Source: a virus
Length of the DNA: 28,504 bases
Direction: 5' to 3' (one strand)
Virus record (IMG/VR): IMGVR_UViG_3300031629_000052
Location: 1 to 28,504 of that record
Shown: positions 6,207-18,283 of the stretch, piece after piece
How positions within the stretch are numbered: position 1 is the stretch's first letter
Layout: the number at the start of each line of letters is the position of its first letter
The notes under the pieces: generated by a model
What the model was told of the DNA's origin: nothing
The model's input: the letters and a program-made list of their open reading frames with translations, nothing else
The model's database searches: none
Made by a program: the position numbers and the translations under genes

Positions 6207-7466
6207 TCAGTAACCTGCTGTGATATCCATTGGTTCGTAGTTGTCTTCTTCAAAGTCATACCCATAAGACACCAGAGCTAACTGGTCTATATAGGCTAAA
6301 GAGTCAATCAAGTCATCATGCACTAAAGGGTTAGGGAATTGAAACAGCTCATCTAAAAACTCAATGTTCCATTCCCCTTCCGCTAGCTTGATAGTCCCGT
6401 GTTCAAACTTACCCTGTAAGGCAGACACTATCCTATCAGTTTTCTTTCTGTTACCGTGAGTTAACTCTACTACTCTAAAGAACCTACCCTGCTTCTTCAT
6501 CATATCCGTAAGGGGTGACATCACTGCTTGCCTAGCAATACCCTTCTCTATACCTACAGAGATTGGCTGGTACTTAGCAACAGCACTGAATATCTTATTG
6601 ACAGTCTCATCAAAAGTCCACCTACCAAAAACAATATCTTCTACGTACCAACCCTCCTCATTTACTTTAACTATCGAGATGGCTGTGTTATCTAACCTTT
6701 TATGCTTTGTCTTTGCTTTACCTACTTCTTCAAAACCAGCCAAGTCAATGGCGATGTAGTACTCTCCAATATCAGGGGGCTCCTCCTCAAAGGCTACCCA
6801 CTCTTCCTTAAATATCTCACTACCCATAGCTTCAAAAGAAGCCATGAACTCTTGTCTAAACGCATAAGAAGACATAGAGCTTTTTGCTAGGTTAATCTCC
6901 TCTGGGTCTAGTAGAGGGTTGTCATACGAAGTAAAGTGCCAGCCCTCATACGTTACATCCTCTCCTAAGTCTGCATACTTATACAAGTCATAGAAGTGAT
7001 TTCTACCCATAGGAGTACCGATAAACAGTGCTTCTCCCTTCTGGTCGGCAAGGGCTGGTCTTAAAATCTGCTCCCAGACTGCAGGCTTCATATCTGCATA
7101 CTCATCCATCACTAGGAACTTCAAACTAACACCACGCATGGTCTCTGGTCTATCAGCTCCTTTTAGGGAAATAGTAGCACCATTGATTAACGTAATCTGT
7201 AAATTGTTAATATGACTGGTCTTTATAACAGGGTGAGCTAACTCTAATAGAGTCTGCCAAATAATATCCCTAGCCTGCCCTTGCGTAGGAGCAACGTAAA
7301 ATACATTACCCTTACCTGACTGTAGTGCATTAACGATAAGGAGCCAAGCAGCTAGTCTGGACTTACCAGTTCGTCTACCTGCGGCTACCACTTTAAATCT
7401 TGTCTTACTAGCCCATACCTCTTCTTGCCAAGGTAGGAGCTTAATGTTTAGGTCTGTGCTACTCAA
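6207..7466 (-). CDS. terL: Terminase large subunit (TTG start)
   Basis: A 419-aa packaging motor. The ATPase has Walker A AAGRRTGKS (residues 28-36), Walker B FLVMDEYAD (Asp121-Glu122) and the coupling motif IGTPMG (149-154). The RNase H-like nuclease shows Asp241 (YIAIDLAG), Glu307 (VGIEKG) and the Asp cluster HDDLIDSLAY (384-388). The start codon is TTG at 7464-7466, overlapping the TGA stop of the LysM gene (TTGA); no in-frame ATG exists before residue 110, after the Walker A. The gene is probably coupled to its upstream neighbour. The enzyme cuts concatemeric DNA and drives it through the portal. Confidence 0.95.
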   Translation of the reverse strand: MSSTDLNIKLLPWQEEVWASKTRFKVVAAGRRTGKSRLAAWLLIVNALQSGKGNVFYVAPTQGQARDIIWQTLLELAHPVIKTSHINNLQITLINGATISLKGADRPETMRGVSLKFLVMDEYADMKPAVWEQILRPALADQKGEALFIGTPMGRNHFYDLYKYADLGEDVTYEGWHFTSYDNPLLDPEEINLAKSSMSSYAFRQEFMASFEAMGSEIFKEEWVAFEEEPPDIGEYYIAIDLAGFEEVGKAKTKHKRLDNTAISIVKVNEEGWYVEDIVFGRWTFDETVNKIFSAVAKYQPISVGIEKGIARQAVMSPLTDMMKKQGRFFRVVELTHGNRKKTDRIVSALQGKFEHGTIKLAEGEWNIEFLDELFQFPNPLVHDDLIDSLAYIDQLALVSYGYDFEEDNYEPMDITAGY

Positions 7467-8442: not shown

Positions 8443-8712
8443 CTACCACTTTACTTTATCAGACCAGTAAGCAGCAGACATTTTACCTTTAGCTATGTTC
8501 TTACCATGTCTAGCCTTAAAGCTTTTCTGTCTAGCTTTCTCAGATTTTGTAGTAGGGCTTGCACCAGCACCAGAAACTCCTTGTTGACCAAATCTAATCA
8601 ACTTAGTAGTCTCCCCTTCTTTTGCCAATACTGCGTGGGACTTCTTCCCATCTGGAGTTTTCTTAGGTTTGTTATAACCTGCAAAAGTCTCCCCTCTATA
8701 TTCTATAGTCAT
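8443..8712 (-). CDS. Conserved basic phage protein, 89 aa
   Basis: A small lysine-rich protein with blocks TPDGKKSHAVLAKEGE, KLIRFGQQGVSGAG and a C-terminus SFKARHGKNIAKGKMSAAYW. The RFGQQG and KARHGKNI...AAYW pattern recurs in many tailed phages, to my memory, where it is annotated only as hypothetical. Its ATG overlaps the stop of the small terminase gene (ATGA). High positive charge and its place in the packaging block suggest a nucleic-acid-binding or head role, which is inference. Confidence 0.75.
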   Translation of the reverse strand: MTIEYRGETFAGYNKPKKTPDGKKSHAVLAKEGETTKLIRFGQQGVSGAGASPTTKSEKARQKSFKARHGKNIAKGKMSAAYWSDKVKW

Positions 8713-9200
8713 TCATCAACCCCACTGTATTTAAAGGACTCAACATCTATTACCTGTTCTTCTTCTTCCTGTACTATTTCCATATTACCATTACTACTAC
8801 CACCTACACCGCTAATAGTAATATTAACAGAAGGTCTACCACCAGTACCTAAGACATCCTTCTCAAACAGTCCAACAGGTAATATCCTATCAGTGACTAT
8901 CTTCCAAGCAGCAGCCTGATGTTTGTGGTCATCATCTAGAGCAGCATTAAGTATTGTATCCAATACCTTCCTACTCTTAGGAGAAGCTAACATACGAGCT
9001 TTATACTCATTGATGACAGAGTTATCCCCCTTAGGTCTACCGACAATACCAGTACCTTTAGCTGCTTTTTTTAAATCAGCTTTAGGAGGTCTTCCTCTTT
9101 TTCTTTTAGCTTTATTCTTTTCTACGTGTAGTCTTGTAGCTTCCTCTTTAGTTACTGGAGGTGTAATGACATCACTGGAGTTATTGTTTTCTGTAACGAT
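8709..9200 (-). CDS. terS: Terminase small subunit (non-standard or uncertain start)
   Basis: The first ATG in frame (8991-8993) gives only 94 residues starting MLASPKSRKV. The same frame stays open up to 9272 and upstream of that ATG encodes KRKRGRPPKADLKKAAKG and GTGIVGRPKGDNSVINEYK. This is an AT-hook-like basic stretch followed by the usual lead-in of phage small terminases. No in-frame ATG, GTG or TTG exists there. An AGAGGT ribosome binding site lies 9 bases before an ATC codon (9198-9200), which I take as the best start; a single-base error in the assembly is the alternative. The protein recognises DNA and recruits TerL. Identity is inferred from motif and position just before the packaging genes. 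Confidence 0.65.
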   Translation of the reverse strand: MVTENNNSSDVITPPVTKEEATRLHVEKNKAKRKRGRPPKADLKKAAKGTGIVGRPKGDNSVINEYKARMLASPKSRKVLDTILNAALDDDHKHQAAAWKIVTDRILPVGLFEKDVLGTGGRPSVNITISGVGGSSNGNMEIVQEEEEQVIDVESFKYSGVDE

Positions 9201-9304
9201 AGGAAAGCTACCTCTGCACCATACTAGAAGAATGTTAAGTATGTTAAGGAGAGTATATATATATAAAACTAACTAACTAATCTCTTACTTAACAAAGAAA
9301 TAAG

Positions 9305-9420: not shown

Positions 9421-9492
9421 CTATTTATTCATTACATACATAGTAACTTCAAAACCAAATCTCATTTCTGTTGCTGATGGTGTTGTCCACAT
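9421..9492 (-). CDS. pqqA: PqqA-like peptide: precursor of the cofactor pyrroloquinoline quinone
   Basis: A 23-codon gene reading MWTTPSATEM then RFGFEVTMYVMNK. PqqA is the ribosomally made peptide whose Glu and Tyr side chains are crosslinked by the radical SAM enzyme PqqE and cut out to become PQQ, the cofactor of periplasmic alcohol and glucose dehydrogenases. The EVTMY block supplies Glu15 and Tyr19 at the required E-x3-Y spacing. Trp2, Pro5, Arg11, Gly13, Val16, Thr17 and Asn22 also match the 23-residue Klebsiella-type peptide as I recall it (10 of 23 identical, same length). GAGGAG lies 7 bases before ATG, and a promoter lies about 60 bases upstream. No pqqB-E is present, so the host would have to mature it. 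A stand-alone signalling use cannot be excluded. Confidence 0.88.
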   Translation of the reverse strand: MWTTPSATEMRFGFEVTMYVMNK

Positions 9493-18206: not shown

Positions 18207-18283
18207 GCGCCTATAGCTCAATCGGATAGAGCACCAGCCTTCTAAGCTGGGGGTTGCAGGTTCGATTCCTGCTGGGCGCACCA
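18207..18283 (+). tRNA. tRNA-Arg (anticodon UCU)
   Basis: A complete 77-base cloverleaf. Acceptor stem GCGCCTA pairs with TGGGCGC (one G-T pair). D-arm stem is GCTC/GAGC and anticodon stem CCAGC/GCTGG, with loop CTTCTAA giving UCU at 18241-18243. T-arm is GCAGG-TTCGATT-CCTGC, and CCA is encoded. It reads AGA (and AGG by wobble), codons used often in these phage genes. It lies in a short gap between the SSB and exonuclease genes. Confidence 0.96.

Follow-up and report, generated by a model that had tools for sequence, protein, structure and literature searches.

A putative small terminase gene of a marine phage most likely starts at a non-canonical AUC codon or the neighbouring AUU

The window, meaning here the whole stretch of DNA that was analysed, is a virus record of 28,504 bases. 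Its minus strand carries, in order, a gene similar in position to that of the small terminase (TerS), a gene of 89 amino acids, a LysM protein gene, the large terminase (TerL) gene and the portal protein gene (E 8e-48), downstream of which lies the major head protein gene. The plus strand carries genes of a primase/helicase, a DNA polymerase, a thymidylate synthase, an exonuclease and a ribonucleotide reductase. A tRNA-Arg (TCT) gene is also found at 18207-18283 (+); the OM43 phage Melnitz has a tRNA-Arg(tct) gene too, adjoining rpsU (PMC9004378), and rpsU was not found among the 10 small proteins of the window that were scanned. The features relevant to the start of the TerS-like gene are as follows.

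6207..7466, minus strand: large terminase (TerL) gene, TTG start; PHROG 2, E 3e-47
8709..9200, minus strand: putative small terminase (TerS) gene read from ATC, an open frame of 163 amino acids plus stop
8991..8993, minus strand: first in-frame ATG, an internal Met codon of the conserved INEYKARMLASPKS block
9081..9107, minus strand: AT-hook-like KRKRGRPPK; Pfam AT_hook E 0.014, under the curated cut-off
9198..9200, minus strand: proposed non-canonical start codon ATC (AUC), with a Shine-Dalgarno word; kept in relatives L082 and L314/L315
9210..9215, minus strand: Shine-Dalgarno-like AGAGGT, of which GAGG is 9214-9211; GAGG kept in L082 and L314
9208..9222, minus strand: four-codon mini-ORF ATG GTG CAG AGG TAG, in a frame other than that of the gene
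9217..9226, minus strand: conserved leader block TAGTATGGTG, holding the mini-ORF ATG; identical in the window, L082 and L314
9305..9333, minus strand: sigma-70-type promoter, -35 TTGACA 9333-9328, 17-nt spacer, -10 TATAAT 9310-9305
9421-9492, minus strand: pqqA (PQQ precursor peptide), 23 codons; Pfam PqqA 41.3 bits (cut-off 21.1), NCBIfam TIGR02107

The promoter was read off the sequence and is also kept upstream of the gene in L082 and L314. The name small terminase, given in the initial annotation, is a positional one, as the gene precedes those of TerL and portal. No TerS profile bears it out, and we use it as a putative one. The protein has no PHROG match at 1e-3 and no NCBIfam match, and in Pfam only the sub-threshold AT_hook. 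In 44 members of the family, the PHROG matched most often carries no description, and the family profile has no sequence match in the PDB. The predicted model of the protein has five helices, of which the core at 60-118 is best modelled (mean pLDDT 62, pTM 0.31); a fold search with this low-confidence model (pLDDT 62) gave no PDB match at E 0.001. Protein searches found no isolate relative of this protein or of that of the family member L051, and a DNA search found none for the region of L175. The adjacent gene of 89 amino acids (8443-8712, minus strand), between the TerS-like and LysM genes, is missing in L314; its homologues occur in cyanophages, Roseobacter phages and others, with up to about 70-74% identity. 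By eye, an element GTTCGTATAGATCCC ... GGGACTCATGCGAAC is shared upstream of the gene in L025:333-465, L028:891-1059, L047:480-618 and L051:4851-4956; it could be a hairpin or a packaging site.

As the initial annotation had described, the frame of the TerS-like gene is open from 9272 to a stop ending at 8709 (187 amino acids from stop to stop), it holds no ATG, GTG or TTG before the internal ATG 8993, and it encodes KRKRGRPPK upstream of that ATG, at 9107-9081. Upstream of the AT-hook-like stretch the frame has six codons that differ from ATG by one base. The one codon among these within reach of a Shine-Dalgarno word of five or more bases (GAGGT) is ATC 9200; ATT 9167 has one of 4 bases and the others have none. 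The ATC lies 10 nt after GAGG and 9 bases after AGAGGT (9215-9210), the former spacing being longer than the 7-8 nt typical of most weak starts in the family, and the residues read from it are I-V-T-E-N. Since it is the sole in-frame near-cognate codon behind such a word, ATC 9200-9198 appears to be the best start of the gene, which agrees with the choice made earlier. The leader RNA showed no structure beyond that of shuffled sequences (z 0.56).

Translation of the part upstream of ATG 8993, which had been held almost certain, is upheld by comparison with relatives. A first scan found 80 related loci among at least 600 candidate stretches, and in these, barring cut or mis-entered frames, the gene starts upstream of the GRP motif that matches KRKRGRPPK of the window. 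In the alignment of 44 family sequences G-R-P of the AT-hook-like stretch is kept throughout, and many relatives begin [M/V/L]-[S/T]-[E/D]. Over the residues that run from the ATC as far as the AT-hook-like stretch, the window and L314 differ with a dN of 0.38 and a dS of 0.95, i.e., evolution of the coding type, which argues that the region is translated. In the same alignment ATG 8993 is the Met of the near-invariant INEYKARMLASPKS block. No relative starting at its equivalent was found when the TerS-like proteins were aligned, and the upstream residues are conserved; initiation at the internal ATG was thus rejected.

The lack of a canonical start is shared by relatives of two degrees. L082 is a separate contig of 32,852 bases, and because its identity to the window is 97.8% and 99.4% over two segments, it represents a different genotype; in this sister strain both the ATC and GAGG are kept. 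The genus-mates L314 and L315, obtained by searching with the LysM protein, share 99.97% identity and match the window at 93% identity over about 4.2 kb. In both, a TAG just 8 codons before the ATC bounds the frame, which contains no canonical start and reads TAT GGT GAA CCG AGG GAA GCT ATT ATC ATT ACA GAA. Counted on the sequence of L314, ATT lies 6 nt and ATC 9 nt after GAGG, so that this neighbouring ATT could serve as the start there instead. ATC is preferred because it is the codon common to the window, L082 and L314, across which it is aligned. The three are a single lineage, forming one supported group in the tree (97).

How rare such frames are was taken from a census of 394 entries including the window (L001 and L114 excluded), of which 390 hold the gene by profile search. 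With 8 frames running off their contigs and 113 duplicates set aside, 269 distinct frames were left, and the starts chosen were ATG in 189, TTG in 64, GTG in 12 and none in 4. The 4 of 269 are L006, which is unrelated, and the window, L082 and L314. That these last three belong to one lineage argues for inheritance rather than scattered noise, and on these comparisons the absence of a canonical start is real and inherited.

Taken together, the gene at 9200-8709 is probably translated by weak initiation from the near-cognate AUC (9200-9198) behind GAGG(U). The mini-ORF just upstream raises a different explanation. ATG GTG CAG AGG TAG is present at 9222-9208 in another frame as previously described, and its ATG falls in TAGTATGGTG, which sits in an otherwise diverged leader; the shared 10-base word was obtained in 0/500 mononucleotide shuffles. 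Coupled re-initiation would have ribosomes start at ATG 9222, terminate nearby and initiate again at the AUC, which would then be used mainly through coupling. This is consistent with the retention of ATGGTG within the 10-base block, with the Shine-Dalgarno word at the end of the mini-ORF and with a report that loss of ribosome-release function leads to non-canonical starts after termination (PMC2268962). However, the mini-ORF at 9222-9208 has no Shine-Dalgarno word of its own, and its stop precedes the ATC only in the window: the TAG is CAG in L082, and in both L082 and L314 the mini-ORF reads past the ATC. Of the re-initiation proposed in the initial annotation, then, the conserved ATGGTG stands, while the CAG of L082 and the distance from the mini-ORF ATG to the ATC (22 nt in the window, 23 nt in L314) go against it, and we regard it as unlikely. 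Since direct initiation at AUC leaves the conserved ATGGTG unexplained, some role of the mini-ORF has to be allowed for; TAGTATGGTG possibly serves coupled re-initiation or is a DNA site.

Initiation at another codon, namely GTT 9197, ATT 9167, an upstream ATA or ATT or the internal ATG 8993, is quite improbable. In L172, L175 and L178 the gene begins AGAGGTACTGTC-GTG-ACAGAGAAT, and alignment by eye places this GTG on GTT-ACA-GAA-AAC of the window, one codon after the ATC. The ATC may accordingly be a displaced start, the ancestral one having perhaps been at the GTT position and then shifted one codon upstream. GTT itself differs from ATG at two bases and stands 13 nt away from GAGG. ATT 9167 is backed by its 4-base word. 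For the upstream ATA and ATT codons there is no Shine-Dalgarno word, and in L314 their place falls beyond a stop that is nearer to the gene; ATG 8993 is within the most conserved block.

A programmed frameshift carrying ribosomes from ATG 9222 into the frame of the gene would also account for the conserved ATGGTG, and AGG followed by the stop UAG might form a pause site; it is nevertheless very unlikely and was rejected, because the register to the gene is not conserved (with 22 against 23 nt, shifts in opposite directions would be needed, +1 in the window and -1 or +2 in L314), the stop is CAG in L082 and no shared slippery site is seen by eye. Finally, a single-base assembly error, which had been suggested earlier and which metagenomic contigs invite, or a gene whose start was lost, can hardly explain a deficit found in L082 and also in the more distant L314/L315, in a frame that is intact with dN below dS; the single-base error was rejected on the strength of these relatives.

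L006 appears to be a case independent of the window lineage, known from one contig. A scan for the leader word CTAGGAGGCAATACTT found 17 loci, in which the next codon is TTG in 14 and ATT in L006, where the frame before the ATT holds GAG GCA ATA CTT and nothing more; two of the 17 (L117 and L126) are not the TerS-like gene. The leader slot GGCAATACTT thus has ATT in L006, TTG in the 14 relatives and ATG in L319-L324 and L328-L330. These last are near relatives of L006 and read AAGGCAATACTT-ATG, the Shine-Dalgarno word being weaker there; AAGGAGGCAATACGA-TTG is found in L332, L333 and L337. Within this slot ATG goes with AAGG, and TTG or ATT with AGGAGG. A single leader slot therefore seems to accept ATG, TTG or ATT, and the weaker codons come with the stronger Shine-Dalgarno word. 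In another clade, whose 29 loci (L286-L313 and L151) were selected by the leader CTCAACANAGAGGTAATTG, TTG follows this leader two bases on in 29/29. The codons past the TTG vary there, as though the leader were more tightly constrained than the N-terminus.

Across the family, a Shine-Dalgarno word of at least 5 bases accompanies 69/80 non-ATG starts against 81/189 ATG starts. A kinship-aware test of this link had 6 independent pairs on supported branches and gave a median p of 0.22 (p 0.125 with the trait 'no ATG'), so the link is statistically not established. No ATG precedes GRP in 78 of the 269 distinct frames, a share inflated by several scans that took weak-start members as their seeds. 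In the first scan only, the least biased sample, distinct frames without ATG were 5/72 for the TerS-like gene, 27/72 for TerL and 0/55 for portal, which argues that weak starts are no general rule for the TerS-like gene; the idea that they mark TerS in particular was rejected on these counts. If anything they mark TerL. A larger set, taken before the last two scans and with the start zone defined differently, gave 76/216 for TerL and 0/164 for portal. The weak starts of TerL lack a Shine-Dalgarno word in 75/80, and an overlap of TerL with the upstream gene is seen in the window alone. At 7466, TerL of the window starts with TTG, that of L082 with GTG.

The pqqA gene gives a clue to the host. 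It lies upstream of the TerS-like gene with its own Shine-Dalgarno word and is present in L082 and absent from L314. With 83-92% identity, the DNA at this gene resembles stretches of phages P19250A, Venkman and MEP301, the hosts of which are Methylophilaceae/Methylophilales, and of a Manatee Spring record. The records of the three phages annotate no feature at the pqqA-like DNA; pqqA has been published before from a methylotroph virus of Lake Baikal (PMC7678222). A degenerate DNA pattern made from pqqA matched at least 80 loci, the genome titles being mostly Methylophilaceae among the matches listed. From these DNA similarities the host is probably a methylotroph of the Methylophilaceae. When infC, the gene of IF3, was sought in 30 Methylophilaceae or related genomes, it was found in 28, with 29 matches. 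The frames readable by motif numbered 27 (L516-L518 and L521-L546, except L524 and L544). The start position holds ATA or ATC in all 27 (ATC in L518), and 20 of the 27 have no canonical start before the core. Hosts of this type thus probably initiate their own infC at AUA or AUC.

In the mechanism that best fits these observations, the word GAGG(U) would place the ribosome at AUC 9200-9198, where the initiator tRNA would insert formyl-Met. Initiation at AUC would be weak, giving low output of the protein, and IF3 would presumably repress it as it does for infC and sigR. The open frame, the conserved ATC and GAGG and the coding-type evolution are observed, and from them we infer use of the AUC in the cell. 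Control by IF3 is suggested by the precedents, and the behaviour of that IF3 depends on a host which is itself a probable one. Most likely, then, the phage starts this protein at a rare, inefficient AUC or the neighbouring AUU. Weak initiation at a near-cognate codon fits a recognition protein for DNA packaging needed in few copies, and the role of the start would probably be to keep the protein scarce, at a low dosage that we deduce from the codon.

A broader proposal is put forward tentatively. The strength of the start codon might be a tuned control of packaging dosage, traded against Shine-Dalgarno strength, and in the methylotroph phages the gene for packaging recognition might have been moved to an AUC that answers to host IF3 as infC does, which would link packaging, late in infection, to the balance between ribosomes and IF3. 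If true, a conserved AUC start of a phage gene would provide a natural handle on IF3-dependent initiation during infection, and the series of ATG, TTG and ATT in one leader slot is a natural experiment on compensation between the Shine-Dalgarno word and the start codon. There is also a consequence for annotation. Gene finders accept only ATG, GTG and TTG, and so such a gene would be called from the internal ATG with loss of the AT-hook-like N-terminus, or be missed.

There are several known systems with which this start may be compared. IF3 has been shown to repress starts of the AUH type (PMC5472188; also PMC2268962). The start of infC, which is AUU in E. coli and ATC in Streptomyces, resembles that of the window gene in being an AUH codon, and its repression by IF3 is documented (PMC5472188). 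In contrast, infC is an autoregulated housekeeping gene of the host, whereas the gene of the window belongs to a phage and is known from its sequence alone. In Staphylococcus aureus, cvfC1 (AUU) and ccpN (AUA) have conserved non-canonical starts, as does the window gene, and such AUU/AUA starts yield about 10% of the output of AUG in poor medium (PMC13009471). Streptomyces sigR starts at GTC, is repressed by IF3 and in this way limits the dosage of one partner (PMC5472188). The S. aureus genes are bacterial, have strong extended Shine-Dalgarno motifs and are proven by ribosome profiling (PMC13009471), and the GUC of sigR is proven by mutation (PMC5472188), whereas the AUC of the window gene and its moderate GAGG(T) are read from DNA. 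Closest in kind are L011, L048, L074, L079 and L172, members of the same protein family that combine a weak GTG or TTG start with a Shine-Dalgarno word, although these are canonical alternative starts and the window gene has none. No title or abstract in the literature searched described non-canonical initiation of a phage terminase gene. Initiation of this kind with the backing of a Shine-Dalgarno word is known already, and what would be new here is a conserved case in the packaging region of a phage.
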